Shown here: positions 16,488 to 32,075 of the stretch, piece by piece
Layout: every line of letters starts with the position of its first letter
Position numbering within the stretch: position 1 is the first letter of the stretch
Assembly: GCA_015065135.1 (NCBI GenBank)
Contig: SVQY01000018.1
Span: 1-43,948 of the forward strand
DNA: 43,948 nucleotides
From: Oscillospiraceae bacterium
GTDB lineage: Bacteria > Bacillota > Clostridia > Oscillospirales > CAG-272
Direction: 5' to 3'
Translations under genes and position numbers: made by a program
Notes under the pieces: generated by a model
Databases searched by the model: none
The model's input: only the letters and a program-made list of their open reading frames with translations
What the model was told of the DNA's origin: nothing

Positions 16488-16565
16488 GATTGTGTGACCG
16501 TATCTTTCGGTCTGTTTATCGTGCGCGGACGCGCGCTGCAAATTTGCTTATGGAGGTTCCAATTC

Positions 16566-19500
16566 ATGAAGCACACGAAGAAAAGACTTCTTGCGATTCT
16601 CCTCGTCTTGGCCATGACGCTGGGGATGGTGCCGATGCTGGCACTCTACGCAGGAGCTGAAGCACCTGTGATCGGCGACGTGGTCGTCGGCGAGGATGGC
16701 GCCATTGCCGATCTCGGCTGGTCCAACGGCTATATCGGCTCTCCGGTACATAGCTTTGGCAACAGCTGGAAGACGGTTCCGCTTGAGAGTAGCTCTTATC
16801 GCTATTCCGACGTGGTCAAGATCCCCAACGCAGGCACCACCCTGGTTTGGAGCGAGTCTACCAAGGCGGGCGCAATGAGCCAGAATGCCATGATGCTGAC
16901 CAGCTGGACCGCAACCGATGACGGTTGGGTGATCAACAAGACCGGGACCAATCTGACTGCGCAGGGCAAGAACACCAACAGCAATCAGTGGTACGACGAG
17001 GCCAATGAGGTCATCTACTACATCTACACCACCACCGAGGCCAACGAGTATCTGCGCTTCTCCTGCTACGGCGGTCAGCCCGACGGCAGCCTGGCAGCAG
17101 ATGCGGCATCCTGCCCGAAGGTCTATGTGTTCACCCCTGCCTTTGTAGAGGGTGAGACCGCAGGCGAGGGCGTGGTGAACGTGGAGTGGACCAACGGCTT
17201 CGTGGGCTCTTATACCAACGATTACGGCGCTGCCAACGCCACGAAGATCTACAGCATGGGTGCCGGCTCCGATTACAATATGTCTCTGCCGATCATTGTA
17301 CCCAAGGCAGGCACGACGCTCAGCTTTACCGAGCCTGCAGGTCAGGCTAAGTACAGCACCGAGCAGGCATATGCCTTCTCCACCTGGACGGTAGGCGCCG
17401 ACGGCAGACTGGATCTTTTCTACGGTCTGTGCGCAGGCTCCGAGAACAGCGCTTGCCTGACCGTTGACGAGGACAGCGATCGCCATTATGCATACACGAC
17501 CTCTTATGACAATGAGATCGTCCGCGTGACTGTTCGCGGCACGGCCACTCCCGTGCTCAGCTATAAGGAAAATAATGCCGAGAATTGGGCGCCTGCCCTG
17601 ACCGCCGCCGGCTACGATCCTGCGCAGGCAGGCAAGCCTGTGATGCTGGATTGGTACAGCGGTCTGATCGGTGTGGAGAGCGGTGCTCTGGTGCTGGGCA
17701 GCCCCATGTACGCCTTCTCTGATATCATCCCCGTATACGGCAAGGGCACTACGATCACCTTTACCGATTACGTATATGATGCCGAGATCGGTGTCGCCAA
17801 CTTTGCGGCTGATACCGTTTACGCCATTGCTAAGTTTAACGGCACCAACTACACCGGTGTCAGCGGCGACTCTGCTGCTCTGACCGAGCTGGTCGAGGGT
17901 GTTGTGACCGGTGACGGCGCAGCCGCCCGCGAGGAGGCCTTCGCTGCCGGCAAGCGCGTTTATACTTACACCACTACTGAGGATATCGAATATCTCCGCC
18001 TCTGCTACTCCGCTATGGGTAACGAGGTGAACGGTGCAAGACTTGCTCCTATCGTTTACATCACCGCTCCCGGTGAGGGAACCTATTATAATGAATTGGA
18101 AGGCTTGAAGCTGGTCACCATCGGTGATAGCTACTTCTACGGCGGCGGCGCGCACAACGACTCTGTTTGGGGCGCAAAGCTGGCTGCCCGTTACGGCATG
18201 GAGTTCTACAACTACGGCATTGACGGCAGCACCGTTTCCAACTACGTGACTACCAACAGTCCCATGGTCGACCGTTACGCCGGTATGACCGACGGTGCCG
18301 ACATCGTGATCTTCGAGGGCGGCAGAAACGACTACAATAAGAGCGTTCCGCTCGGCGAGGTCGGCAATACCGATACCAAGACCTTCCTTGGCGCTGTGCA
18401 GACTATGCTGGCAGGCCTGATGGAGAAGTACCCCAATGCACTCATCATTTGCGTGACCCCCTGGAACCTGGTCGGCCTGGATGAGACCGGTCTCGGCTCC
18501 AACAAGGTCAATGATGCCGGTCTTCGCACCGAGGACTACGCAAATGCCTTTGCCTCCTATGTGGAATCCTTGAACGACGATCGCGTGGTTGCCATCCGCG
18601 CCTGCGATGACGACGTGATCCCCGTATTCATGACCAATGCGACCTTCCGCAAGCTCTACTGCGTGGGCGCTAACGACATCAGCCATCTGAACGATAAGGG
18701 CCACGACCACGTGCTGACCTGGTTCGAGCAGATCATCGGCAAGGCTTACAAGAACTTTGGCGGCGTGACCGCCGAGGGCGGTGAGGCCGTGAAGTTTATG
18801 AACGGCACCGCTACCGTGGCATTGCTCGGTACCGCTGCGGGTGACCGCGAGATCACCGTTCCTGCTGCTCCCGCAGGCGTTGCAGCCTCCAACATCTTCG
18901 GTTGGTCCGGCGTGCTGACCAACGGCGAGACCAGTGTGTACAAGATCTTCCGTGCCGGTGAGAAGATCACCCTGAAGCAGGGCGATACCGGCGTGTTCAC
19001 GCCTCTTACCCTGGAGATGAAGCAGATCGCAGAGCCCGAGCTCCGCATGAATGATACCATTGGCTTGCGCTTCCTTGCTACCGTTTCGGATGCGCAGTAT
19101 AAGGCTCTCGTCGCACTGGTCGAGAGCGGCGAGATGGGCAATGCCACCATTACGGTCGGCATGCTGATCGTGCCTTCCCAGTACGTAGCAGATATGGGCG
19201 GTGACCTGACCCATGCTGCTCTGGATGAGGCTGATATGAAGCGTGTAGACGCTGTTTCCGAAATTGATTGGCTGGATGAGAACACCCTTGACTGGTACAA
19301 GATGGAAGGCGATTACGGCTACGTTGCGGGCACCGTTCACGAGTTCCTGCAGCAGAACCACGCCAGAAAGTACACCGGTCGCGGTTATGTGAAGCTGACC
19401 GTTGAAAACGAGGAGTTCTACGTATACGCCGAGAACAAGACCGTTGGCGGCTCCACTATTTACGAGGCGGCCATCAAGGCGCTGAACGATTGCACCCCCG

Positions 19501-20030
19501 GCCCGAACGAGACCTATCAGACCCGCGTTGAGGGCGAGAACGGTGTTGTTTACTCCCGTTACACCGCTGAGCAGAGAGCTGCTCTTGCCGAGTATGTGGA
19601 CGATGTACTGGCACTGGAGACCGTGACCGATCAGCAGACCGGCAGCACCTCCGCTGAGTTGGTGCACTATGACCATTACGATCCTAACAGCAAGCGCTAC
19701 AACACCGTTACCCTTGTGAATGGCGGCGACGATGCGCTTTCCGACATCTTCTATCCTTACGCAGGCAGCCCTGTGGGCGCTGCGGCCATGAAGGATGAGG
19801 CATGGGATCTGCTGATCGCAGAGCTTGGTAACGATACCAATATCACCTCGATCTGCGCGATCCTGGTAGAAGAGGGCTATGAGATCACCGCTGACGGTGG
19901 CATCCTGTTGGATGGCTTCCTCTGTGAGCTGGACGATGCGACCTCCTCTGTGAAGTGCGCCGAGTTTGTATACGAGGGCTATACCTTCTATCTCCTCGGC
20001 TTTGCTGATTACAGCAACGGCTTCTATTAA
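16566..20030 (+). CDS. Large secreted SGNH-hydrolase protein with N-terminal repeats and a shared C-terminal module
   Basis: This 1154-residue exported protein starts with a Sec signal peptide (residues 1-33, KKRLL then a hydrophobic core and AGAEA). Three repeats of about 155 residues follow, opening at LGWSNGYIGS (about 49), VEWTNGFVGS (207) and LDWYSGLIGV (362); each ends in a YLRF-like strand. An SGNH/GDSL hydrolase domain follows (about 515-735): Ser522 in GDS, Asn588 in GRND, and Asp704/His707 in DISH. Residues 825-975 match the C-terminus of the 2308-residue protein at 21083. It probably de-esterifies an extracellular polymer. No LPxTG or SLH anchor is seen. I took the ATG at 16566, with GGAGG upstream, over an earlier GTG. 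Confidence 0.85.
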   Translation: MKHTKKRLLAILLVLAMTLGMVPMLALYAGAEAPVIGDVVVGEDGAIADLGWSNGYIGSPVHSFGNSWKTVPLESSSYRYSDVVKIPNAGTTLVWSESTKAGAMSQNAMMLTSWTATDDGWVINKTGTNLTAQGKNTNSNQWYDEANEVIYYIYTTTEANEYLRFSCYGGQPDGSLAADAASCPKVYVFTPAFVEGETAGEGVVNVEWTNGFVGSYTNDYGAANATKIYSMGAGSDYNMSLPIIVPKAGTTLSFTEPAGQAKYSTEQAYAFSTWTVGADGRLDLFYGLCAGSENSACLTVDEDSDRHYAYTTSYDNEIVRVTVRGTATPVLSYKENNAENWAPALTAAGYDPAQAGKPVMLDWYSGLIGVESGALVLGSPMYAFSDIIPVYGKGTTITFTDYVYDAEIGVANFAADTVYAIAKFNGTNYTGVSGDSAALTELVEGVVTGDGAAAREEAFAAGKRVYTYTTTEDIEYLRLCYSAMGNEVNGARLAPIVYITAPGEGTYYNELEGLKLVTIGDSYFYGGGAHNDSVWGAKLAARYGMEFYNYGIDGSTVSNYVTTNSPMVDRYAGMTDGADIVIFEGGRNDYNKSVPLGEVGNTDTKTFLGAVQTMLAGLMEKYPNALIICVTPWNLVGLDETGLGSNKVNDAGLRTEDYANAFASYVESLNDDRVVAIRACDDDVIPVFMTNATFRKLYCVGANDISHLNDKGHDHVLTWFEQIIGKAYKNFGGVTAEGGEAVKFMNGTATVALLGTAAGDREITVPAAPAGVAASNIFGWSGVLTNGETSVYKIFRAGEKITLKQGDTGVFTPLTLEMKQIAEPELRMNDTIGLRFLATVSDAQYKALVALVESGEMGNATITVGMLIVPSQYVADMGGDLTHAALDEADMKRVDAVSEIDWLDENTLDWYKMEGDYGYVAGTVHEFLQQNHARKYTGRGYVKLTVENEEFYVYAENKTVGGSTIYEAAIKALNDCTPGPNETYQTRVEGENGVVYSRYTAEQRAALAEYVDDVLALETVTDQQTGSTSAELVHYDHYDPNSKRYNTVTLVNGGDDALSDIFYPYAGSPVGAAAMKDEAWDLLIAELGNDTNITSICAILVEEGYEITADGGILLDGFLCELDDATSSVKCAEFVYEGYTFYLLGFADYSNGFY

Positions 20031-20048
20031 TAAATAAGAAGCAAAACA

Positions 20049-20077
20049 GGCACCCCTCCAAGTGAGGGGTGCCTTCT
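20049..20077 (+). terminator. Terminator of the SGNH protein gene
   Basis: GGCACCCCTC (20049-20058) pairs with GAGGGGTGCC (20064-20073), followed by TTCTTCT. Confidence 0.85.
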
Positions 20078-20100
20078 TCTATCAGTCTTCCCAAAATGGC

Positions 20101-20128
20101 AAAAAGCCGCCCCGTAGGGCGGCTTTTT
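20101..20128. terminator. Terminator of rnhA
   Basis: A 12-bp perfect stem (20101-20112 with 20117-20128), loop CGTA, with A5/T5 flanks. It lies just beyond the rnhA stop on the minus strand and could also back up the SGNH terminator. Confidence 0.9.
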
Positions 20129-20140
20129 TACTCATTGTGG

Positions 20141-20638
20141 TCAAAGCTCGATGCCCAATTGCTCCTCGGCAGGGGGAGTGGGGGCAGCATCCCTTTGCGG
20201 CGCCGGGAAGGTGTCGGCAAAGGTGGTAGCCAGCGTGTCGCAACGCTCATTATACGGGTGCCCGGCGTGGCCCTTGACCCATACAAAGGTCACGGCATGG
20301 CGGTCCAACAGCTGCAGCAGTGTTTCCCATAGATCGGGGTTCAAGGCAGGAGATTTGTCGGCCTTTTTCCAGCCGCGCGCGCGCCAGCCCTTGGCCCATC
20401 CGTTGAGCACCGCATCGGCCACGTATTTGGAGTCTGTGGTCAGCGTGACCTCGCAGGGCTCCTTCAGAGCGGAGAGCGCGGCGATCACGCCGGAAAGCTC
20501 CATGCGATTGTTGGTGGTGTGCGCCTCACCGCCGGAAAGTTCTTTTTCACGGCCATTGTAGACAAGGATCGCGCCCCAACCGCCCGGGCCGGGATTGCCG
20601 CGGCAGGCGCCGTCGGTATAGATATCCACGTGCTTCAT
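20141..20638 (-). CDS. rnhA: Ribonuclease HI
   Basis: This 165-residue enzyme cuts the RNA of RNA-DNA hybrids. The catalytic acids are Asp9 (DGACRGN), Glu47 (NNRMEL), Asp69 (TTDSKYV) and Asp134 (NERCD), with His124 in the active-site loop; all are present. The ATG at 20638 follows TAAGG. A longer open frame upstream to 20935 has no ribosome site and does not look like RNase H. About 20 Pro/Ala-rich residues extend the C-terminus. It is a lone gene between the two giant secreted-protein genes, on the opposite strand. Confidence 0.96.
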
Positions 20639-20686
20639 TCTGACGACCTTACCTCCGTTTTTTGATCCCGTTTGGGTGCTTTTTTT

Positions 20687-20715
20687 ATTATACCCCATTC
20701 TGTTGGCGGTGTCAA
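20687..20715 (-). promoter_or_regulatory. Consensus promoter of rnhA
   Basis: On the minus strand TTGACA (20715-20710), 17 bp, TATAAT (20692-20687): a perfect consensus. Confidence 0.9.
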
Positions 20716-20968
20716 GAGGGAGTTTGGGAATGCTTGCCTTGTGCCGATCGGCACGAAGCCCTTGTGCGCGTGTGCGTGCGTGGCGCCATTTGAAAATGTG
20801 AAGAACGGCGTGACACAACGGCTGCGGCGATTGGGATTTGTGCAAATTTACAAAATAAAAAAGGTGGCAAACGGTATGAGTTTTTTGCGTTTTTCGGGAG
20901 AGTGGGAGCACACGCGCGTGCGTGCGATTGGTCAAAAGCGAGAAACTGGAATTTTGAAAGGGATAATC
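20716..20968. other. Non-coding stretch between divergent promoters
   Basis: About 250 bases lie between the rnhA promoter and the next promoter. They hold a perfect 14-bp palindrome (GTGCCGATCGGCAC, 20741-20754), two alternating GTGCGTGCG tracts (near 20765-20782 and 20911-20925) and an AACGGTAT motif (20870-20877). A 109-residue open frame crosses here but has no ribosome site or family look. I assign no function. Confidence 0.5.
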
Positions 20969-20997
20969 TTGACCTTTGGAAGTATTTATTATATAAT
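20969..20997 (+). promoter_or_regulatory. Promoter of the 2308-residue secreted protein gene
   Basis: TTGACC (20969-20974), 17 bp, TATAAT (20992-20997). The leader of about 80 bases contains a GAGAG/CTCTC hairpin region (about 21023-21052) before the AAAAGGAG ribosome site. Confidence 0.85.
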
Positions 20998-21082
20998 ATA
21001 ATCGTGTAAACCCTATTCCTTTGCGAGAGGTGGGTTCAGGAGCCCGTCTCTCACGATACTACAGCGAAAAGGAGAAGCAAAC

Positions 21083-24000
21083 ATGAAGAAACTGCTTGCG
21101 TTACTCATTGCGGTCATGATGGTCGTGGCAATGGTGCCCGCCACCATGCTCTCTGTGCTGGCTGCCGAGCTTGATGCCGGTGCCGGTAACGGAGGAGGGG
21201 AGACCGACACTCCCATCACACCCGCACCGGATACGTCGGTGGGCGATGGATACGAATTCATCGCAGAAGAGACCGACCTTCCCGACGAGCGCCTGGAGGA
21301 GGAAGCTGCCTCTGCGTTCGATAAGGAATTCACCGAGGGCGTGGACAATTTTGAGCTTGTGAACAAGGACGGCACGCTGGTCGGCTACTTTGCCGATCTG
21401 GCTGCTGCCGATGCCTGGGTCCGCAACGGCGATACCCTGCGCTTCCTTGCCGACGTCACGCTGACCTCCCGTTACGATTTCGGTAACGGCAGAACGCAGC
21501 TTGCCGGCCAGATCACGGCGTACACCATCGACGGTAACGGCCACACCGTGACCTATACCGGCACCAATAACTATGCCATTGGCCTTTACGGTGACCTGAA
21601 CAGACACACGGTGACCTTCACCGACCTGAAGCTGATCTCCGCTCGCGGCGGCATCGAGTCCTCCGCAGGCTCCGGCAAGGGTATGCGCGTGGTGTTGGAC
21701 AACGTGCAGGTCTATGCCAACGACAGCTACTACGCAGTCGATCCCACCGCTTACGGCGCGGGCAAGCTGACCTACAACGGCACGACCACCCTGAACGCTG
21801 TGTGCGCTTGGACCGTTAACACCTACATCGTGATCAAGGGTGAGAACACCAAGATCCACGGCGGCAACGGCCCTGCCATCTGGGCACACGCCAACGTGGC
21901 ACTGTATGACGGCGAGATCTATTCCGCCGGTAACGACGTGACCATTGCTGTGCGCGGTGACAAGCGTTATTCCAATCGCACCGAGCATACCTTTGTGGCA
22001 TACGGCGGTACTGTCATCAATGAGAAGGGCGCGGCTGTCCGCATCCTCGGCGGTGCTTCCGGTTACTTCTTCGGCGGCAGCTTTGTGCAGACCGCAGAGA
22101 AGAGCACGACCGGCTGGGCAACGGCTGTGCGTGCAGGCGGTACGGAGATCAGCGACGCGACCGGCCAGGATGGTCAGACCACCGTCGGTCAGATCTACAT
22201 TATGGGCGGTAACTTCTACGTGGATAACGGCGGCGCTGCCGGCGTGATCCCTGCAGAGGGTGCAGCGGTTTCCACCAATGCGGGCGGCCCCGTTTACATT
22301 GCGGGTGGTAGCTTCTACTATACCGGTGCCAAGGCCTACGGCGGCAATGACAGCTCCGTGCTGCTCAGCGCCTCTGTGAAGGCTGAGACCGTTGAGGTGA
22401 CCGAGGAGAACACCCTGACCGTTCCCTCCGGCACGGTCACCTTCGCCAAAATGACCACCGTTTCCTTTGACCTTGCGCAATACGCAGGTATCATCTCTGC
22501 CGATGGTACGCTTGCGGATGCCGATGCATTGAGCGCCCTCGGCTTCGAGGCCGCCATCCTGGATGCAGACGGCAAGGTCATGGATCTCCTGCATCTGGAT
22601 AAGGGCGATGCAGAGACCTCCATTCACTTTACCACCGACGGTGCTGCCATGACTTCTATTGCAGCTCTGCTGGAGAGATCCTCTCTCATGACCCCCGACG
22701 GCGGCACCTACTTCCTGCTGGCCGATCTGATCGGTGACGAGAGCACCGAGTCTGCCGATATCTTTACGCGTCTCCCCTACGGTGAGTACACCCTGGACGG
22801 CAACGGTCATACGATCGAGATCAATAATAAGGCTCTTTACATCTGCTATACTGCAGGCGGTGCGACCGTTAACCTTCGCAACGTTACTATGCGTAACACC
22901 GTGGGTCGCGGCCTTCAGTATAACAGCGGTGTTATTGCGGATCCCGTCTGGAATCTGACCGATACAAAGATCATTGCCGGTGCCGGCTCCACCGTATATA
23001 TGCCGAACAGTGCGACTCTGAACCTGCTGGAGGGCTCCGAGCTGGTCTGCCCCGAGTCTACCGAGACCTGGGCGTATCTGATCCAGATGAACGAGAACGC
23101 CACCTTGAACGTGGACGGCGGTACGCTCCGCTGCTTCACCACCGAGCTGATCTCCAGAGCGCCTTTCGTCGCTAACGGCAGTGCAGGCACCCGCTACATC
23201 AATCTGAAGTCGGGTACCATCGTGCTTCCCACCGACACGCTGATGTCTCTCTACTATGCAGAGAACCCCGACCGCGTGGCGAACATCGTGATCTCCCCCG
23301 AGATGAGCATCGTGGATCTTGACGGTAACCCCGTTCTGATGCCCGGCGTGGCAAACACCGTGCAGCTGACCAATCCCGGCGCTGAGCCTGCTTACTACAG
23401 CGATATCGCCGATGCGATCGCAGACGCCGTTGAGGGCGCCGTCATCGAGCTGCTTGCCGATGTCGTGGCAGCCAAGGCCATCAAGATCGACTTTGATCTG
23501 ACCTTGAAGGGCAACGGCTATACCGTTTACGATATGAGCCAGTCTGCCTACACTCCCTTCATCTGGATCACGGGCGAGGGCGTTGACGTGACTGTTGACG
23601 CGCTGACCGTGGTCACCCAGACCACCGGTATGCTGGTTTCTCCCAATGCCTTCAGCGATCTGACCAACAGCTCCTGGGGCATAGACGGTGCCAAGTATCT
23701 CTCCACCGATCTGAATGCTAAGGATGCCAACCGCATCAACGTGGTGCTGAATAATTGCAAGATCCTTACCAACGTTTATGACGAGAGCGGTTACGATGCT
23801 ATCGACACCGCCGAGGGTATGGCTAATTTCCGCGCTGTCAGCGGTACCTCCAGAGGCTCCCTCATTATGCACGGCCAGAACGTGTACGTGAAGATCACCG
23901 GTGCAGACGGTATGTACGCATCCGCTGCCGGCGACTTTACGATTGCCAACATAGGCGGCTTCCTGGATATCTACGACGGCTTGGTTTACGGCCACGATGC

Positions 24001-27000
24001 TTACAACGTCTTGGGCCTGTACGGCAGAACCGATATTTCCGCGTTGACCGACAATCAGGTGCGCTCTGCCACCACCGCGATCTACGGCGGTCGCTTTATC
24101 GCAGGCCCCAAGGTGGATGCATCCCTCATTCGCACCCTGCGCGGCCATACCCTGGTGATCGCAGGCGGTGAGTTCCTGCAGACCACCTCCGGCTCGCAAG
24201 TGGTGCGCGCCTCCGACTCCAACAGAGCCGGCTACGGTTACATCCTGGGCGGCGACTTCTACAACGATAACGGCAACGGCATCTTCGGCTACGGCAATGC
24301 CGACGTGGGTTACTTCCGCATTTACGGCGGTAACTTCTTCGCCAAGAGCAATCCCGGTATCGCAACCACCAAGAAGCCTACGTATTTCTTTAACTATAAC
24401 GGCTACGAGACCTCCAACCGTCTGGGTGTTTCCACCACGTACGGTATGTATATCGATGCCGGCTATCAGATCGACACCTACGGCTACGCAGAGTCCCCTG
24501 TATACAACGCCAACACCAAGCTGGAGTATGTCAAGAAGGGCTTTACCCATCTCCAATCGGTGCATTATGATGAGCAGTGGCTTGCTGAGAACGGCTATCT
24601 GGAGGAGGGCATTGCATACCTGGTGACCAACGGTGAGGATCAGGCTCCCACAGCCTTCTACGGCTTCGAGCTGGAGCGCGCTCTGTTCTACCTGGGCAAT
24701 GGCGGTACCTTCACGCTGACCCGCGACATCACCTGGAAGCAGCCTGCCAAGGCCACTCAGGGCGAGGATGACACCGACTACGGTGTGCACACCCGCTGCA
24801 GACCCGCTGTGGCTGAGATGACCTTCAACAGCTCTGCCAAGGACGGCTACTACACCCTGACTGCAACTGCTTCCGACATTTCCTTCTTGACCGTTCAGGG
24901 CGGTACCTTCTACTTTAATAATATCGGCATCGTCAACAAGAAGGGTGGCGTGATCGGCGTCAGAAGCACCTATAACACCACGCTCTACTTCACCGACGGC
25001 TATTACGAGGCCAACACCACCGCAACCTCTGCCTGCGACGGTATCGTGACCAATATCGGTAACACCGCATACTTTATCGGCGGTACCTTCACCTCCGACC
25101 GCGCGGCGATCACCGTTAACGCTTATGCCAAGCTCTATTTCGGTATCGAGGGCACCCAGCAGGGTCCCACCATCATCCAGAAGGACAATCAGGCGATCTG
25201 GATCGGCGGCGGTGCAGGTATGGAGATGAACTTCTACTATGCCACCTTCCGCGATACCGGTACGAAGGGCTGCAACCTTCAGTTTGCCAACACGGCCCAG
25301 AATTTCACCCTGAATATTTACGACGGTTACTTCTTTGTTAATAATAAGGGTAACTATCAGGTCATCGGCTCCGACAACGGTGCTACCGGTAACGTGAATA
25401 TTTACGGCGGTACCTTCATCCGCGGCAACACCGGCCCCGGTGATGTCGGCTACGGCAAGCTGTTTATCTTCCAGCACGACGGTGAGGTCAACCTGTACGG
25501 CGGTACCTTCCGCACCCTGGTTTCCGGCAATACGATGATGACGATCCGAAACAACGTTGTAAAGGTCAACATCGGTAACCCCGAGACCGGCGAGGGTCCC
25601 ACCATTCAGACCAACGGTGGCCATGCGATCCAGATCGATAACAACTACAACACCAATGCTACCGTAAAGATCTACGGCGGCACGATGACCGGCTCGGATA
25701 AGGATCATGCCACCATTCTGATGGGTCAGAATGGCGACACCGGCACCGTCACCGCGACCCTGGATATCTACAACGTCAATATCAACGCCGCGGGCAGAGT
25801 CCTGATCGTAGGCGATGATGACATTGCTCACATTTACGACGGTGTGTTTACTGCAGGCGCGGATAGCAATATGTTCTATACCAACACCAACAGTAAGCTG
25901 CACATCCACGGTGGTGACTTTACCAAGACCGGCAACAACCTGTATTACCCCGGTAACAACTCTGTTCTGACTGTTACGGGCGGTAACTTCAACGTCAAAA
26001 CCTTCAGCTGGTATAACGGCAGCGGCACATATACCGTGAACCTGGGCTCCACCGCCGACGTTGAGAACGATGATATCTACGTATATGCGACCAGCGCCTT
26101 CTTTGGTACCGACGGCGCGTTCACCGGTAAGCTGAATCTTAACATTTACAGCGGTACCTATGAGACCAATACCACCGGTAACACCATCTATATTTACGGT
26201 TCCGGCTCCGGCTCGATCAAGCTTTACGGCGGCGATTTCTGGGAGTATGGCGGCGGTAGCCGTATGTTCCGTATCGGCGGCTCCTTCAGCGGTGACATGG
26301 GTATCTACGGCGGTACCTACAAGCAGGAATCCACCTCGGATCTGCTCTGCATCGTGGATAACTCCCGTGTAGACCTGACCCTTGGCCGCGAGGACGGCAC
26401 CGGCCCCGTGATGAGCGCGGTGGGTGACTCCATTGTACAGTATTCTTACGCGCACACCTCCACCGATCCCGTCAGCGTTCGCGTGCTGGGCGGTAGCTAT
26501 ACCGTAACCGGCGGCTCCTCCAGCGTATTTGGCGTTTGGAGCCTGCCTGCCGGCTCTACCATGGTCTTTGAAAACGATCCTGTGGTGCAGGCAATCGAAA
26601 ATTGCACGGGCTGGGCTGTAGACTATGGCTGTGCCGGAACGACCTTGACCGTAAACGGTGGTAGCTTCTCCACCTACGGCAACGTTGACGCTTGCTTCAG
26701 CGTTGGCGGCGGTACGGGCATTATCAATGCCGGTTACTTCTACGCGCAGGGCCTGTGCGTAGCACGTGCCATCGGCGGCAAGGCCTCTACCGCTGACACC
26801 GAGCTTGACAAGGGTGTGATCGAGACTCCCACCGATGCCAAGCTGATTATCAACGGCGGTCTGTTCGTGCTCGCCGAGAACTGGGAGCGCAACCAGGCAG
26901 ACGACGGTGATATCAACGACGCGGTCATCCGCGTAGGCGGCTGGACCGGCCACGGTACGGTCATCATCAATGACGGCACCTTCATCTCCAACAGCGGCGT

Positions 27001-28009
27001 TGGTCACCGCGTGATCAACAAGTACAATCCTGCCGGCATTATTGAGATCAATGGCGGTATCTTCATGGCGAGCGAGATCCAGAAGTACTACTTCTGCAGC
27101 ACCGGTACCTTCGTGGATCAAAGCGGCAACCCGATCAACGGCAGCGCAGATCCCGATCGCATTGACGTAGATCCTGCAAAGGATATGCAGATCGCCTATG
27201 CAGGCAAGACCTACTACACCCTGATGCTCAACCAGGAGGACTACATCGATTACCATTCGGTAACCGGTAAGGGCGATATCCGTATCATGAAGATCGAGCT
27301 CGGCAACGAGGATCAGTATCAGAACGGTATCCGCTTCACCACCTCCATTTCCAAGGCATATCTGGAGCAGTACGCTGCTATTCTGGATCAGGCGATCGAT
27401 GGTGTGACCTTCGGTACCATCATCGTTCCTGCCGACTATCTGGAAAAGGTTGACGTATTGAACCACGTAACGCTTGACGGCGCAGGGCTGGATTATCTGG
27501 ACATTGCAGCCGACAAGAGCCTGATCACCACCGAGAACAACGTGACCTTCACTGCTGCCATCACCGACATCAAGGAAGAGAACTACGGTCGTAGATTCGT
27601 GGCGATCGGTTATGCAATGGCAACGGTTCCCGTGGTCGGTGAGAACGTTCCCGGCGTGGATACTGACATTTCCGCTCCCGTAGAGCCCACCACCGAGACA
27701 GTTTACGTCTACGCTGAGTATGACGCCAAGGGCACCTCTCTTGCAGAGCTGGGAAGCATCCTGCTGGAGGACGAGATCAACGCAACGAACCCCTACTCGG
27801 CCGAGCTGAAGGCATTGCTCCAGAGCTTTGCAGACGCCCTGCCCGAGGATGAGGCTCCCGACGTGACGCCTTCTCTGCCCGGCGGCGACGACGTGATCGA
27901 CGATCCCTTCGGATCCGATGACGACGATAACAACGGCGGCGAGGGTGACGACACCAACAACGGTGGCGATACTCCCGAGGGCGACGGCGGAAACGACCAA
28001 AACGCATAA
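21083..28009 (+). CDS. Giant secreted beta-helix (pectate-lyase-like) repeat protein
   Basis: This 2308-residue protein has a Sec signal peptide (about 1-28, MKKLLALLIAVMM to VLAAE). At least four header units (near 95, 545, 770 and 1190) read roughly FxDLxxA...GxTxxLLxDV and introduce right-handed beta-helix stretches. About twenty turns carry a GGxF/GGxY core (for example NIYGGTF, KLYGGDF, FIGGTF). Residues about 2070-2231 match the C-terminal module of the SGNH protein. The end is an acidic Asp/Asn/Gly tail (from about 2260) that might bind Ca2+. I see no catalytic set, LPxTG or SLH motif. It may be a surface or matrix protein or a glycan binder. No TTA, CTA or TCA codon occurs in frame. 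Confidence 0.85.
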   Translation: MKKLLALLIAVMMVVAMVPATMLSVLAAELDAGAGNGGGETDTPITPAPDTSVGDGYEFIAEETDLPDERLEEEAASAFDKEFTEGVDNFELVNKDGTLVGYFADLAAADAWVRNGDTLRFLADVTLTSRYDFGNGRTQLAGQITAYTIDGNGHTVTYTGTNNYAIGLYGDLNRHTVTFTDLKLISARGGIESSAGSGKGMRVVLDNVQVYANDSYYAVDPTAYGAGKLTYNGTTTLNAVCAWTVNTYIVIKGENTKIHGGNGPAIWAHANVALYDGEIYSAGNDVTIAVRGDKRYSNRTEHTFVAYGGTVINEKGAAVRILGGASGYFFGGSFVQTAEKSTTGWATAVRAGGTEISDATGQDGQTTVGQIYIMGGNFYVDNGGAAGVIPAEGAAVSTNAGGPVYIAGGSFYYTGAKAYGGNDSSVLLSASVKAETVEVTEENTLTVPSGTVTFAKMTTVSFDLAQYAGIISADGTLADADALSALGFEAAILDADGKVMDLLHLDKGDAETSIHFTTDGAAMTSIAALLERSSLMTPDGGTYFLLADLIGDESTESADIFTRLPYGEYTLDGNGHTIEINNKALYICYTAGGATVNLRNVTMRNTVGRGLQYNSGVIADPVWNLTDTKIIAGAGSTVYMPNSATLNLLEGSELVCPESTETWAYLIQMNENATLNVDGGTLRCFTTELISRAPFVANGSAGTRYINLKSGTIVLPTDTLMSLYYAENPDRVANIVISPEMSIVDLDGNPVLMPGVANTVQLTNPGAEPAYYSDIADAIADAVEGAVIELLADVVAAKAIKIDFDLTLKGNGYTVYDMSQSAYTPFIWITGEGVDVTVDALTVVTQTTGMLVSPNAFSDLTNSSWGIDGAKYLSTDLNAKDANRINVVLNNCKILTNVYDESGYDAIDTAEGMANFRAVSGTSRGSLIMHGQNVYVKITGADGMYASAAGDFTIANIGGFLDIYDGLVYGHDAYNVLGLYGRTDISALTDNQVRSATTAIYGGRFIAGPKVDASLIRTLRGHTLVIAGGEFLQTTSGSQVVRASDSNRAGYGYILGGDFYNDNGNGIFGYGNADVGYFRIYGGNFFAKSNPGIATTKKPTYFFNYNGYETSNRLGVSTTYGMYIDAGYQIDTYGYAESPVYNANTKLEYVKKGFTHLQSVHYDEQWLAENGYLEEGIAYLVTNGEDQAPTAFYGFELERALFYLGNGGTFTLTRDITWKQPAKATQGEDDTDYGVHTRCRPAVAEMTFNSSAKDGYYTLTATASDISFLTVQGGTFYFNNIGIVNKKGGVIGVRSTYNTTLYFTDGYYEANTTATSACDGIVTNIGNTAYFIGGTFTSDRAAITVNAYAKLYFGIEGTQQGPTIIQKDNQAIWIGGGAGMEMNFYYATFRDTGTKGCNLQFANTAQNFTLNIYDGYFFVNNKGNYQVIGSDNGATGNVNIYGGTFIRGNTGPGDVGYGKLFIFQHDGEVNLYGGTFRTLVSGNTMMTIRNNVVKVNIGNPETGEGPTIQTNGGHAIQIDNNYNTNATVKIYGGTMTGSDKDHATILMGQNGDTGTVTATLDIYNVNINAAGRVLIVGDDDIAHIYDGVFTAGADSNMFYTNTNSKLHIHGGDFTKTGNNLYYPGNNSVLTVTGGNFNVKTFSWYNGSGTYTVNLGSTADVENDDIYVYATSAFFGTDGAFTGKLNLNIYSGTYETNTTGNTIYIYGSGSGSIKLYGGDFWEYGGGSRMFRIGGSFSGDMGIYGGTYKQESTSDLLCIVDNSRVDLTLGREDGTGPVMSAVGDSIVQYSYAHTSTDPVSVRVLGGSYTVTGGSSSVFGVWSLPAGSTMVFENDPVVQAIENCTGWAVDYGCAGTTLTVNGGSFSTYGNVDACFSVGGGTGIINAGYFYAQGLCVARAIGGKASTADTELDKGVIETPTDAKLIINGGLFVLAENWERNQADDGDINDAVIRVGGWTGHGTVIINDGTFISNSGVGHRVINKYNPAGIIEINGGIFMASEIQKYYFCSTGTFVDQSGNPINGSADPDRIDVDPAKDMQIAYAGKTYYTLMLNQEDYIDYHSVTGKGDIRIMKIELGNEDQYQNGIRFTTSISKAYLEQYAAILDQAIDGVTFGTIIVPADYLEKVDVLNHVTLDGAGLDYLDIAADKSLITTENNVTFTAAITDIKEENYGRRFVAIGYAMATVPVVGENVPGVDTDISAPVEPTTETVYVYAEYDAKGTSLAELGSILLEDEINATNPYSAELKALLQSFADALPEDEAPDVTPSLPGGDDVIDDPFGSDDDDNNGGEGDDTNNGGDTPEGDGGNDQNA

Positions 28010-28023
28010 AACACAAAAACGCA

Positions 28024-28058
28024 GCCACCCTATCCCTTTGCGGGATAGGGTGGCTTTT
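28024..28058 (+). terminator. Terminator of the beta-helix protein gene
   Basis: A 13-bp perfect stem (28024-28036 with 28042-28054), loop TTTGC, followed by T4. Confidence 0.9.
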
Positions 28059-28149
28059 GACGTGATGGAGAGTCTCTGCCGAAAACAGATTTTTTGATAC
28101 CGTTTCGATTTTTTGCTGCTTTTGCGGCAAAAAACAGGCGAAAATATGC

Positions 28150-28178
28150 TTGACAGTGGGGGAGGGGTATGATATACT
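28150..28178 (+). promoter_or_regulatory. Promoter of the tandem EEP genes
   Basis: TTGACA (28150-28155), 17 bp, TATACT (28173-28178). The ATG at 28228 follows a GAAAGGGAG site. Confidence 0.85.
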
Positions 28179-28227
28179 TTTTTTGAGGAGAAGACCTCTA
28201 TTTCTTTGCCGAAAGGGAGTACTGAAG

Positions 28228-29076
28228 ATGACAAAACTGCGCTTGATGAGCACAAATCAGTGGGCGTGTGATAAGAATACGCCTGCATGGGAGGCAATGG
28301 GCGAGGATTGCTCTTATTCCGCTCGTATGCCAGGCTTTTTGAAGTATTATATGGAGACCAAGCCGGATATTCTGGGCCTGCAGGAGGTCACCGCCAAGAT
28401 GGCGGATAAGCTGATGCGCCTCTTTTGTGAGGAGGGGCTGCCCTATGCGCTTCTTTGGGGCAAGGATACCCCCATTATCTATCGCACCGACCTGTTTGAG
28501 CTGGTAGACTCCAGATTTCTGATCTATCCCGAGGAGTTCCCGGGGCACGAGGGATGCTTTAACAATAGCAAGACCAAATCCTACAACGTAGGCGTTTTTC
28601 GCATCAAGGAGAGCGGCAAGCTCTTTATCCTGATGAGCACCCATCTGTGGTATAAAAATGGCTCCAATCCCGAGGCAAAAAGCTATCAGCCCTTCTCGGA
28701 CGAGGCGCGCGCCTATCAGCTGGGACTGGCGATGGACTGCCTGGATCAGCTGCAGGCCAAGTACAACTGCCCTGCGGTGGTGATGGGTGATATGAATGCC
28801 CAGCGCAGCAAGCCCTGCATCCAGGAGGCGTTTGCACGCGGATTTTCTCATTGCTACGATCTGGCCGTGGAGCATCGGGATGAGGGCAACGGTCACCATT
28901 ATTGCTTCCCCGACGGGTACAAGGGCTATACGCCCGGTCCTGCTGCCAACGCTATCGATCACATTCTGGCGCGCGGCTTTGAGGAGGGTGCCGTTCGCAC
29001 CTATGACCGCTATGCCCCCGAATACTATATGTGCCTGTCCGATCATATTCCCGTTTGGATCGACGTAGAGATCTGA
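28228..29076 (+). CDS. Endonuclease/exonuclease/phosphatase-fold enzyme, first copy
   Basis: This 282-residue metal-dependent phosphoesterase fold has its motifs in order: Asn10, Glu53 (LQEV), His139 (STHL), Asp188/Asn190 (GDMN), Asp244 (IDHI) and Asp272/His273 (SDHIPV). The catalytic set looks complete. There is no signal peptide, so it acts in the cytoplasm. The family includes DNases, sphingomyelinases and sugar- or inositol-phosphate phosphatases; the substrate cannot be told. The ATG at 28228 is preferred over longer frames because of its ribosome site. It is 13 bp upstream of a close paralogue in the same transcript. Confidence 0.85.
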   Translation: MTKLRLMSTNQWACDKNTPAWEAMGEDCSYSARMPGFLKYYMETKPDILGLQEVTAKMADKLMRLFCEEGLPYALLWGKDTPIIYRTDLFELVDSRFLIYPEEFPGHEGCFNNSKTKSYNVGVFRIKESGKLFILMSTHLWYKNGSNPEAKSYQPFSDEARAYQLGLAMDCLDQLQAKYNCPAVVMGDMNAQRSKPCIQEAFARGFSHCYDLAVEHRDEGNGHHYCFPDGYKGYTPGPAANAIDHILARGFEEGAVRTYDRYAPEYYMCLSDHIPVWIDVEI

Positions 29077-29089
29077 CATGGAGGGTAGC

Positions 29090-29935
29090 ATGGCAACGAT
29101 TCGCTTGATGTCGAATAATATCTGGAACTGCGATAGCAACAAGCCCGCCTGGGAGGCTATCGGCGAGGACTGCTCGGCAAAGGCGAGAATGCCCGGTATT
29201 GCCCGCGTGTATGCCGAGACCAAGCCGGATGTGATCGGCTTGCAGGAGGCTTCGCATACTATGGTGGATCTGCTTGCCCACGAGCTGCAAAAGCTGGGGC
29301 TGAGATACACTGTTTTGTGGGCGCGGTTCACAAGCATCCTATACCGTTCCGAGCTTTTTGAGGTGGCGGATGCGGAGTATCTCTGCTATCCCGAGCACTT
29401 TGAGGGCTACGAGGGTTGCTTTAACGACGTGCGCAGCAAATCCTGCAATCTGGCGGTACTGCGCTTGAAGGAGAACGGCAAGCGCTTCGTGTTTGCCAAT
29501 ACGCATCTGTGGTGGAAAAATCGAAATCCTGCCGTCAAAACCTATCAGGCAGGCTCGGGCGAGTGCCGTGCCTATCAGGTGAGGCTGGCCTCTGAAATGA
29601 TCGACCGCTACCGCAAAAAGTATGACTGCCCCGCGGTGCTGCTGGGTGATATGAATGACACCTATGATTCGCCGATGATGGAGTCCGCCCACGCCTGCGG
29701 TTTTGCGCATGCGCACGACGTTGCGGTGGAATACGCCTCGGAGGAAAAGGGGTATCATTATTGCTTCCCCGATGGGCACAGATCCTATGTGCCGGGCCCC
29801 TTCAAGAGCGCGATCGACCATATTCTGGTCAAGGGCTTTGCGGCAGATGCGGTCCGCCGCTTTGATCGCTATATTCCCGATTATTACGAGCCGCTTTCCG
29901 ACCATTATCCGGTCTACATCGATCTTTTGCTTTGA
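29090..29935 (+). CDS. Endonuclease/exonuclease/phosphatase-fold enzyme, second copy
   Basis: This 281-residue protein is a clear paralogue of the preceding one, colinear along its whole length (shared KPAWEA or TPAWEA, GEDCS, ARMPG, TKPD, HYCFPDG and AIDHIL). The key residues are Asn10, Glu53, His139, Asp187/Asn189, Asp243 and Asp271/His272. I took the ATG at 29090 because the earlier ATG at 29078 lies at the GGAGGG ribosome site. No signal peptide. The pair arose by tandem duplication and has diverged substantially, so the two may act on different substrates. Confidence 0.85.
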   Translation: MATIRLMSNNIWNCDSNKPAWEAIGEDCSAKARMPGIARVYAETKPDVIGLQEASHTMVDLLAHELQKLGLRYTVLWARFTSILYRSELFEVADAEYLCYPEHFEGYEGCFNDVRSKSCNLAVLRLKENGKRFVFANTHLWWKNRNPAVKTYQAGSGECRAYQVRLASEMIDRYRKKYDCPAVLLGDMNDTYDSPMMESAHACGFAHAHDVAVEYASEEKGYHYCFPDGHRSYVPGPFKSAIDHILVKGFAADAVRRFDRYIPDYYEPLSDHYPVYIDLLL

Positions 29936-29938
29936 CGT

Positions 29939-29986
29939 AAAAAAGGCCACACGGTATCGAAAAAACGATACCGTGTGGCCTTTTTT
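29939..29986. terminator. Bidirectional terminator between the EEP genes and nadE
   Basis: A 21-bp perfect stem (29939-29959 with 29966-29986), loop of six A, with A6/T6 flanks. The stem carries the recurring ACGGTATCG motif on both arms. Confidence 0.95.
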
Positions 29987-29995
29987 TATGCTTTT

Positions 29996-31891
29996 TTAGA
30001 TCTCGATGGCCTCGATCTCGGCAAGCCAGAGGGCCGAGGAGGCATCCGAGGGCATCTGCCAATCGCCACGGGGCGAAAGGCCTACCGAGCCGATCTTTAC
30101 GCCGTCGGGGACGCAGTTGCGCTTGAACTGCTGATTGAAGAAGCGGCGGAAGAACACGGTCAGCCACTTCTTGATGGTGGCGCCGTCAAAAATACCGTCA
30201 AAGGCGCGCATTGCCAGTGCAAAGATCTTGGAGGGAGCATACTGATAGCGCACCGCCCAGTAGAGGAAGAAGTCGTGCAGGGCGTAGGGACCCACCAGGT
30301 CCTCGGTCTTTTGCGCGATCTTGCCTACGGCATCGGGGGGCAGCAGTTCGGGGCTGATGGGGGTATCCACCACGCGCAGCAGCACGTCGCTGGCCTTGGG
30401 GAATACCTTTTCCTCGGCAATGCTGGTCACGATCCAACGCACCAGCGTTTTGGGTACATCGCCATTCACGCTGTACATGCTCATATGGTCGCCGTTGTAG
30501 GTGCACCAGCCCAGCGCCATTTCCGAAAGGTCGCCGGTTCCAAGCACGATGCCACCGACCTGATTGGCAATATCCATCAGCACCTGCGTGCGCTCGCGCG
30601 CCTGCGCGTTTTCATAGGTGACAGAATAGTCCTTGGGATCGTGGCCGATATCCTTGAAATGCTGCAGCACTGCCTCCTTGATCGAAACGGTACGGGAGGT
30701 GACGCCAAGGGCGTCCATCAGCGCAAGAGCGTTTTGCAGGGTGTCGTCAGAGGTGCCGAAGCAGGGCATCGTCACGGCGGTGATATTGGTGGTGGGCAGC
30801 TGCAGCCGCTCCATTGCGCGTACTGCTACCAAAACGGCGAGCGTGGAATCCAGGCCGCCGGAAATGCCGATGGTCAGCTTGCCGCCGGTGACGGAAAGGC
30901 GGCGAGCCAGTGCAGCGGCCTGCATCTCGTAGATCTCTAGGCAGCGTGCCACGCGTTCGGCGCGGTCGTCCGGAATAAAGGGCAGGCGGCGTACCTGCAA
31001 CAGCCTGCCGTCAGAGGCGGCGAGGGTACAGGGCAGCAGCAGGGCGGCGTCACCGTCACCGGTCACGAAATCGACCTTGCGGCGGTCGTAGCGGATGCGT
31101 CCCAGATCCATATCGCAAAGGATCAGATAATTGCTGTCAATGGCGTTTTTGTTTTCGATGATCAGCTTGCCACCCATCGCGGCAAAGGCAGCACCGCTAT
31201 AGAGGTAGTCGGCAGTGGACTCCTCCGCGCCGGCGTTGACCGAAAGATAAGCGGCAAGATTGCGCTCGGATCGCTCGGTCAGGGTGCGGCGCACGGCAGC
31301 GCGGCGGCCGATGACCTCGGGGCGCGCAGAAAGATGTAAAATGACCTCTGCTCCGGCAAGCGCCAAGGCGCTGTCGGTAGCGTGGGGGGAGAACAGATCC
31401 TCACCCACAGCAATGCCGACGGTGGTGCCGTCGGTGCCGGTAAAGCAAAGATCCACGGCGCTTACGCAAACGTCGGTATCGCCGAGCGGTGCGGTGCAGT
31501 TGAGACCGTCTCCGCAGGCAAACCAACGCAGATCTGTGGCACTGAGCACGCTTTTGGGAACGATGCCGGCGATCTGGCCGTCACAGAGCACGACGGCGCA
31601 GTTATACAGAGCGCCTGCGATCTGCAGCGGTGCGCCGATGACTGCCATCATCTCGGCAGGGGTGGCCTCGGCAAGCTCCAGCAGGGCACTTTCTACCTGC
31701 CTCAGCAGCAGCTCAGAAAAAAACAGATCGCCGCAGCTGGCACCGGTCAGCGACAGCTCCGGAGTGATCAAAATAGAGGCACCGGCGCTATGTGCTTCGC
31801 GGATGCGCTCAATAATGGCGTTTTTGTTATAGGTAACGTCAGCAACCTTCAGGGCGGGAACGGCAAGAGCCGCACGCAAAATATCCTTCAT
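29996..31891 (-). CDS. nadE: NAD(+) synthetase, long form with altered glutaminase domain
   Basis: This 631-residue protein has an N-terminal nitrilase-type amidase domain (about 10-270) and a C-terminal ATP-pyrophosphatase synthetase domain with SGGLDST at 344-350. It makes NAD from nicotinate adenine dinucleotide. In the amidase triad Glu45 (TPEL) and Lys113 (VPKS) are present, but the nucleophile position, normally Cys in xxxCEDLW, reads AVGEDLF with Gly163 (codon 31403-31405). The glutaminase should therefore be inactive and the enzyme would need free ammonia or another donor. The ATG at 31891 has a GGAGG site; the open frame upstream is not supported. Confidence 0.93.
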   Translation of the reverse strand: MKDILRAALAVPALKVADVTYNKNAIIERIREAHSAGASILITPELSLTGASCGDLFFSELLLRQVESALLELAEATPAEMMAVIGAPLQIAGALYNCAVVLCDGQIAGIVPKSVLSATDLRWFACGDGLNCTAPLGDTDVCVSAVDLCFTGTDGTTVGIAVGEDLFSPHATDSALALAGAEVILHLSARPEVIGRRAAVRRTLTERSERNLAAYLSVNAGAEESTADYLYSGAAFAAMGGKLIIENKNAIDSNYLILCDMDLGRIRYDRRKVDFVTGDGDAALLLPCTLAASDGRLLQVRRLPFIPDDRAERVARCLEIYEMQAAALARRLSVTGGKLTIGISGGLDSTLAVLVAVRAMERLQLPTTNITAVTMPCFGTSDDTLQNALALMDALGVTSRTVSIKEAVLQHFKDIGHDPKDYSVTYENAQARERTQVLMDIANQVGGIVLGTGDLSEMALGWCTYNGDHMSMYSVNGDVPKTLVRWIVTSIAEEKVFPKASDVLLRVVDTPISPELLPPDAVGKIAQKTEDLVGPYALHDFFLYWAVRYQYAPSKIFALAMRAFDGIFDGATIKKWLTVFFRRFFNQQFKRNCVPDGVKIGSVGLSPRGDWQMPSDASSALWLAEIEAIEI

Positions 31892-31930
31892 ATCAAGACC
31901 TCCGAGATGGTGTGATCTTCTTACCATATT

Positions 31931-31959
31931 ATTATAGCATCCTTTGCGGTAAAATGCAA
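31931..31959 (-). promoter_or_regulatory. Promoter of nadE
   Basis: On the minus strand TTGCAT (31959-31954), 17 bp, TATAAT (31936-31931) with TGC before the -10. Confidence 0.8.
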
Positions 31960-32075
31960 GAGTAGTGTTGTGAATTCGAGGAATTCGCAAAGCGGAAGCG
32001 AAATTTGGAAAGCGGCGCCGATTTTTAATTTCAAAAACGGAAAAATGTATGTAAAAAATGGAAAATCAGTAATGG

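Follow-up and report, generated by a model that had tools for sequence, protein, structure and literature searches.

The window, a stretch of 43,948 nucleotides from a Clostridia genome, codes for two giant secreted proteins, P0001 with an SGNH hydrolase domain and P0002 with beta-helix-like repeats. It raises the question of why two proteins whose amino terminal parts have nothing in common should share a segment near their carboxyl termini. An earlier note, made from the sequence alone, had aligned residues ~825–975 of P0001 with residues ~2070–2231 of P0002, could not name the family and suggested a function in cell-surface retention, export or assembly.

A module shared by P0001 and P0002

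The motifs on which that alignment relied are all found in both proteins, in the order that had been given (Table 1). The local alignment of the two segments scores 96, a value reached by none of 2000 shuffles (mean 38.9, sd 6.4, maximum 74), so that their likeness exceeds chance, and BLASTP gives E 2e-4. A profile of 106 modules, built without the window's own genome, the genome G037 of the same genus and locus L039 (other named loci were kept whatever their genus), matches P0001 at E 1.8e-25 and P0002 at E 2.4e-24. Of 102 decoys, 2 reversed and 100 shuffled, it matched none up to an E value of 10; the profile of all modules had no match at E 1e-3 in 1999 reversed ORFs. The family recurs in further Clostridia genomes. 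The segment is a self-contained module, a real family common to both giant proteins.

The segments first delimited are homologous but end too early. The linker and the helix beyond them, with consensus SxYTxExxxxLxxY, belong to the module, whose core and carboxyl terminal helix together measure about 190 residues; the revised boundaries are found in Table 1. The P0002 copy carries a Pro/Thr/Glu-rich insertion near its end. Both copies lie near the end of their protein, as had been noted, but not strictly at it, since 133 residues follow in P0001 and 51 in P0002. By eye, the region that follows the module of P0001 is similar to its counterparts in L002, L004 and L010.

That the amino terminal parts are unrelated is consistent with Pfam, which identifies a GDSL/SGNH domain in P0001 and no family in P0002. 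Ahead of this domain P0001 has three diverged repeats (repeat 1 versus 2, E 3e-10; 1 versus 3, E 3e-6) that match no Pfam family.

Table 1. Features of P0001 and P0002 in the window
Feature	Positions	Strand	Details
SGNH protein P0001	16566..20030	+	likely start ATG 16566 behind GGAGG; listed ORF starts GTG 16494
Three amino terminal repeats of P0001	16674..18083	+	residues 61-225, 226-360, 376-530; ~135-165 residues each
GDSL/SGNH hydrolase domain	18111..18713	+	P0001 540-740; PF13472 E 2.6e-13, PF00657 E 9e-9
Module copy 1 with carboxyl terminal helix	18996..19628	+	P0001 835-1045; alignment, fold prediction, profile
Motifs of P0001			numbered from GTG at 16494: IGLRFLATVS 856; VGMLIVPSQY 888; THAALD 906; GYVKLTV 964; YVYAE 976; GSTIYEAAIKAL 986
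Region behind the P0001 module	19629..20027	+	133 residues; sequence
Secreted protein P0002	21083..28009	+	2308 residues; beta-helix-like repeats (by eye); no Pfam family
Module copy 2 with carboxyl terminal helix	27263..27853	+	P0002 2061-2257; alignment, fold prediction, profile
Motifs of P0002			NGIRFTTSIS 2081; FGTIIVPADY 2110; NHVTLD 2127; GYAMATV 2176; YVYAE 2208; GTSLAELGSILL 2217
Carboxyl terminal tail of P0002	27854..28006	+	51 residues; acidic, Asn/Gly-rich; sequence read

Known families and predicted fold

No family of Pfam, NCBIfam or the PDB sequences covers the module. The family can still not be named, as no model for it was found in Pfam or NCBIfam, and the match to a characterised domain that the earlier note held would speak against it did not occur in these collections or with Foldseek. 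A literature search found no paper describing the module. Structure prediction, which among all members covers the two window copies, gave pLDDT 85.4 and pTM 0.78 for P0001, pLDDT 81.7 and pTM 0.76 for P0002. Both copies are predicted to adopt the same Ig-like beta-sandwich with a carboxyl terminal helix, hence the structural dissimilarity that would have spoken against a common module was not observed between them.

The Pfam families of known surface and assembly domains give little or no signal. SLH (PF00395) has no match in the two window proteins and 27 modules, and WXL (PF13731) none in the window proteins, the 27 modules and 115 module ORFs; no Trp-x-Leu motif is conserved by eye in alignment A5. 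Dockerin (PF00404) is likewise absent from the 27 modules and from the 115 full module ORFs, while the carbohydrate-binding family CBM_X2 was matched by one of the 27 modules, at E 0.011 only.

Distribution among genomes

Queried alone, either window copy detects additional copies in its own genome. The five-copy alignment A1 detects the module in at least 9 of 59 genomes of the taxonomic family, and the 27-row profile A2 in at least 21 of 197 genomes of the order, at least 12 of 391 of the class and at least 1 of 398 of the phylum, the one being the window's own. These counts include the own genome and are lower bounds, with up to 19 candidates scored per genome for the order and about 10 for the class and phylum; later draws repeat some genomes. 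The module was seen only within the window's class, where its occurrence is patchy, other phyla being reached by a narrow pattern scan only. That scan yielded 11 loci from 18 candidate stretches, with titles of Oscillospiraceae, Ruminococcaceae, Clostridia and Clostridiales MAGs, several of them referring to gut samples of goat, sheep or roe deer. Copy number can be high, with at least 19 modules in G172 and at least 19 in G074.

Position, copy number and export

A set of 117 full ORFs, covering part of the matches, was assembled; ten multi-copy genomes contributed to it, as did G081, G100 and named loci including the window (L193, discussed below, lies outside the set). It holds 118 modules, present in single copy in 116 of the ORFs. 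The sole ORF with two modules is L164 (G037 contig 28), a lipoprotein-like protein (by eye) of 547 residues that carries them in tandem.

Among the 115 ORFs with a complete 3' end, 77 terminate at most 15 residues past the module. The proportion differs between genomes: 19/20 in G172, 10/11 in G119, 5/5 in G209 and 11/13 in G074; 7/15 in G144, 2/7 in the window's own genome and 0/8 in G014. More than 15 residues are found behind the module in the other 38 ORFs and more than 100 in 28 of the 115, so the module is not merely a tail. The region behind internal modules is often a phosphatase or SGNH domain (by eye). A cluster of eight large module proteins in G014 contig 28 (L157, L158) has 331–341 residues behind each module. 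In L174 (G000 contig 9) the module has a beta-helix-like region on one side and an SGNH/sialate-esterase-like domain on the other, after which beta-helix-like sequence resumes (by eye).

A signal-peptide-like start was recognised by a simple rule in 101 of 106 ORFs with a complete 5' end. The placement of the module is mainly, not strictly, carboxyl terminal. The occurrence of one fold at the carboxyl termini of many secreted Clostridia proteins, which the earlier note had put forward as a test, is borne out at the sequence level for the family as a whole and, for the window copies, by structure prediction. A retention module would be expected near a terminus of exported proteins whose other parts are unrelated; these figures for position and export agree with that expectation, although not strictly.

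Partner domains and relation to SLH and dockerin

Pfam was used to scan the 115 full module ORFs in four sets (A7, 31 ORFs; A8, 25; A9, 26; A10, 33), the two window proteins being scanned separately. The partners comprise GH5, GH16, GH25, GH26, rhamnosidase, NAGLU, AXE1, polysaccharide deacetylase, GDSL, SASA, alkaline phosphatase, metallophosphatase, heparinase II/III-like, CHAP, transglutaminase, LRR_5 and Big_2 domains. In the order A7/A8/A9/A10, the numbers of ORFs are 11/0/1/1 for Big_2, 2/1/0/5 for LRR_5, 1/4/5/0 for Flg_new, 0/5/1/0 for Metallophos and 0/3/3/1 for Lipase_GDSL_2. Hepar_II_III_C is found in 5 ORFs of A7, SH3_3 in 4 and Glyco_hydro_25 in 3, AXE1 in 4 ORFs of A10 and SASA in 1 of the 25 of A8, while GH5, GH16, GH26, rhamnosidase and NAGLU occur in single proteins each. 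With such diversity, one common substrate would not explain the spread of the module.

SLH was detected in 1 of the 115 module ORFs (A8, E 5e-4). SLH and dockerin are present elsewhere in the genomes, as surveyed together with cohesin in ten genomes all chosen for several modules (6/10 have at most 15 module matches). SLH has at least 60 matches in G172, 37 in G119, 83 in G144, 71 in G116 and 104 in G074; at least one match is present in nine of the ten genomes and at least 20 in seven, so in these genomes the module would not be the sole anchor. Dockerins are found in 7/10 (45 matches in G209, 23 in G014, 21 in G056), together with SLH in 6/10, and have no match in G000, G172 and G119. In G209 no SLH is present among the matches listed, against its 45 dockerin matches. 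Module, SLH and dockerin are three surface or assembly labels that exist side by side and are seldom on the same protein. Note that SH3_3, found in 4/31 module ORFs of G172/G119, is a known peptidoglycan-binding domain, so that the module is not fully separate from all wall-binding domains.

The window's genus (G000, which is 84 percent complete, and G037) was scanned for sortase, PS_pyruv_trans, CW_binding_2 and SLH. The first three have no match in either genome, and SLH has one in each among the matches listed (E 1.9e-5 and 4e-4). The module has seven in each and, if an anchor, could be a main one in this genus.

Cohesin-module proteins and dockerin neighbours

Three module ORFs contain a Pfam cohesin: L134 (G209), whose 5' end is off the contig, L151/L203 and L153 (both G074). 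They represent 3 of the 31 cohesin matches in the ten genomes, where at least four other cohesin proteins carry SLH (G074, 392 aa; G056, 389 aa; G172, 817 aa; G116, 442 aa). L134 is encoded by the genome with 45 dockerin matches and no SLH among those listed. Anchoring scaffoldins combine cohesin with SLH or with another wall-interacting domain (PMC11557425). By analogy, the module would occupy the place of SLH in these proteins, which would have the layout of an anchoring scaffoldin. The layout is the same as in scaffoldins with cohesin and a non-SLH surface module (PMC11557425), but neither the module nor the three cohesin-module proteins have a Pfam match to the domains listed in that source. 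Some scaffoldins also pair cohesins with a CBM (PMC11557425), so a cohesin-module protein is no proof of cell anchoring. The argument does not apply to G000, G172 and G119, where there is no dockerin.

In four places in two genomes the module gene lies directly behind a dockerin gene on the same strand, according to the listed coordinates; three of the four pairs are from G074. Upstream of L153 and L203 (G074) is a gene coding a large protein that ends in cohesin-dockerin, its stop being 12 bases from the module gene in both cases. Upstream of L193 (G074) and L125 (G144) is an LRR-dockerin gene, at 20 and 74 bases, respectively. The amino terminal part of L125 is weakly cohesin-like (hhalign E 0.006, probability 6.5 percent) and has no Pfam cohesin; L193, with a module at E 1.9e-15, has none either and is not cohesin-like. 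No such gene pair appears in the listed coordinates of G209, G014, G056, G116 and G037. The chance that 4 of 104 dockerin matches precede a module gene is roughly P 6e-4, counting matches and not genes, an overly favourable value, since genes coding secreted proteins tend to lie in clusters.

Function of the module

The earlier suggestion of retention, export or assembly can be narrowed toward retention, as far as sequence goes, by the near-exclusion with SLH and dockerin and by the cohesin-module genes beside dockerin genes, with the reservation that the module is also internal. We give an even chance to its being a new non-covalent cell-surface retention module, where we infer both the binding to the cell and its non-covalency. 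The module, attached in single copy and mostly at the extreme end to proteins that a signal peptide exports, would bind the cell non-covalently and keep unrelated secreted proteins on its surface; joined to cohesins, as in some relatives, it would hold dockerin-bearing partners there. This is the best reading since it brings together where the module sits, its dosage, the diversity of its partners, its near-exclusion with SLH and its fusion to cohesins.

A protein with a cohesin might instead attach to a substrate or another protein, which leaves room for a carbohydrate-binding or a docking module. A CBM tethering its protein to plant or host glycans rather than to the cell would account for the many carbohydrate-active partners, and CBMs accompany cohesins in some scaffoldins (PMC11557425). 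The weak fold matches include CBM21 and CBM56 chains but these are no better than the antibody and FnIII ones. We find this reading unlikely, given that partners also include GH25, CHAP, alkaline phosphatase, transglutaminase, LRR_5 and beta-helix proteins, that the module is nearly always single, and that R, F, R, G, Y, P and Y occupy its most conserved positions, with Trp the leading residue at none of the top 25 of the module profile. Rather unlikely too is that the module docks onto another protein, doing the work of a dockerin by plugging into a surface scaffold. Its presence once per protein, mostly carboxyl terminal, on diverse enzymes and many times per genome would suit such a role, as does the lack of dockerin in all 115 module ORFs. 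A partner with repeated receptor domains was, however, not identified (no systematic search), alignment A5 displays by eye no dockerin-type Ca-binding repeat, and the predicted Ig-like sandwich differs from the dockerin fold.

Ig-like folds occur in sorting domains. This and the extreme carboxyl terminal position in 77/115 ORFs are in line with a domain for folding, stability or export that has no lasting partner (a carboxyl terminal chaperone, a spacer or a sorting domain like those of type 9 secretion). Modules inside proteins with regions behind them, modules beside cohesins and the many SLH and dockerin proteins that lack the module in the same genomes make this improbable.

Non-covalent retention, the preferred reading, has known counterparts. 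SLH likewise serves to retain numerous unrelated secreted proteins at the cell surface and is joined to cohesins in anchoring scaffoldins (PMC11557425). The module differs from it by the lack of sequence match, by one predicted sandwich instead of short repeats, and by its presence also in G209, without SLH among the matches listed, and in the window's genus without PS_pyruv_trans. WXL forms the last ~120–190 residues of many extracellular proteins, binds the wall non-covalently and is reported mainly from Lactobacillales and Bacillales (PMC5817068). The module is also end-placed on many extracellular proteins but belongs to Clostridia and has neither a Pfam WXL match nor, by eye, a conserved Trp-x-Leu. 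With type I dockerin it has in common the diverse enzymes and the many copies per genome; its ~190 residues are beta-rich by prediction, in contrast to a dockerin profile of 57 positions, and no ORF of 115 has both.

It is possible, though doubtful, that the module defines an undescribed surface-attachment system of Clostridia. In such a system the ligand would be neither the product of a sortase nor a pyruvylated SLH polymer, and the module would dock to it many enzymes, adhesin-like LRR and beta-helix proteins and scaffoldins with cohesins. The module would then be a main route of surface display in lineages like the window's genus, which gave no match to sortase, PS_pyruv_trans or CW_binding_2. 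As a surface tag the module would be carried by much of the surface proteome of some gut and rumen Clostridia, this genus included. Cellulosome-like complexes would have one more means of anchoring, and the module could serve to display proteins on these bacteria. Whatever its function, it is a ~190-residue domain family with many copies in some genomes and no Pfam or NCBIfam model found.

Surroundings of the two genes

An RNase H gene (20141-20935, - strand) lies between the genes of P0001 and P0002, which are therefore probably not part of one operon. Directly behind the P0002 gene are two tandem Exo_endo_phos genes on the + strand (28150-29935). A relative of P0002 with 2737 residues is encoded at L049:517-8694 (24 percent identity over 1349 columns). 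The gene behind it resembles by eye the NAD synthase of the window, and the neighbourhood is similar to window positions 21083-31990; the NAD synthase-like gene is on the same strand as the P0002 relative in L049 and on the opposite strand in the window.
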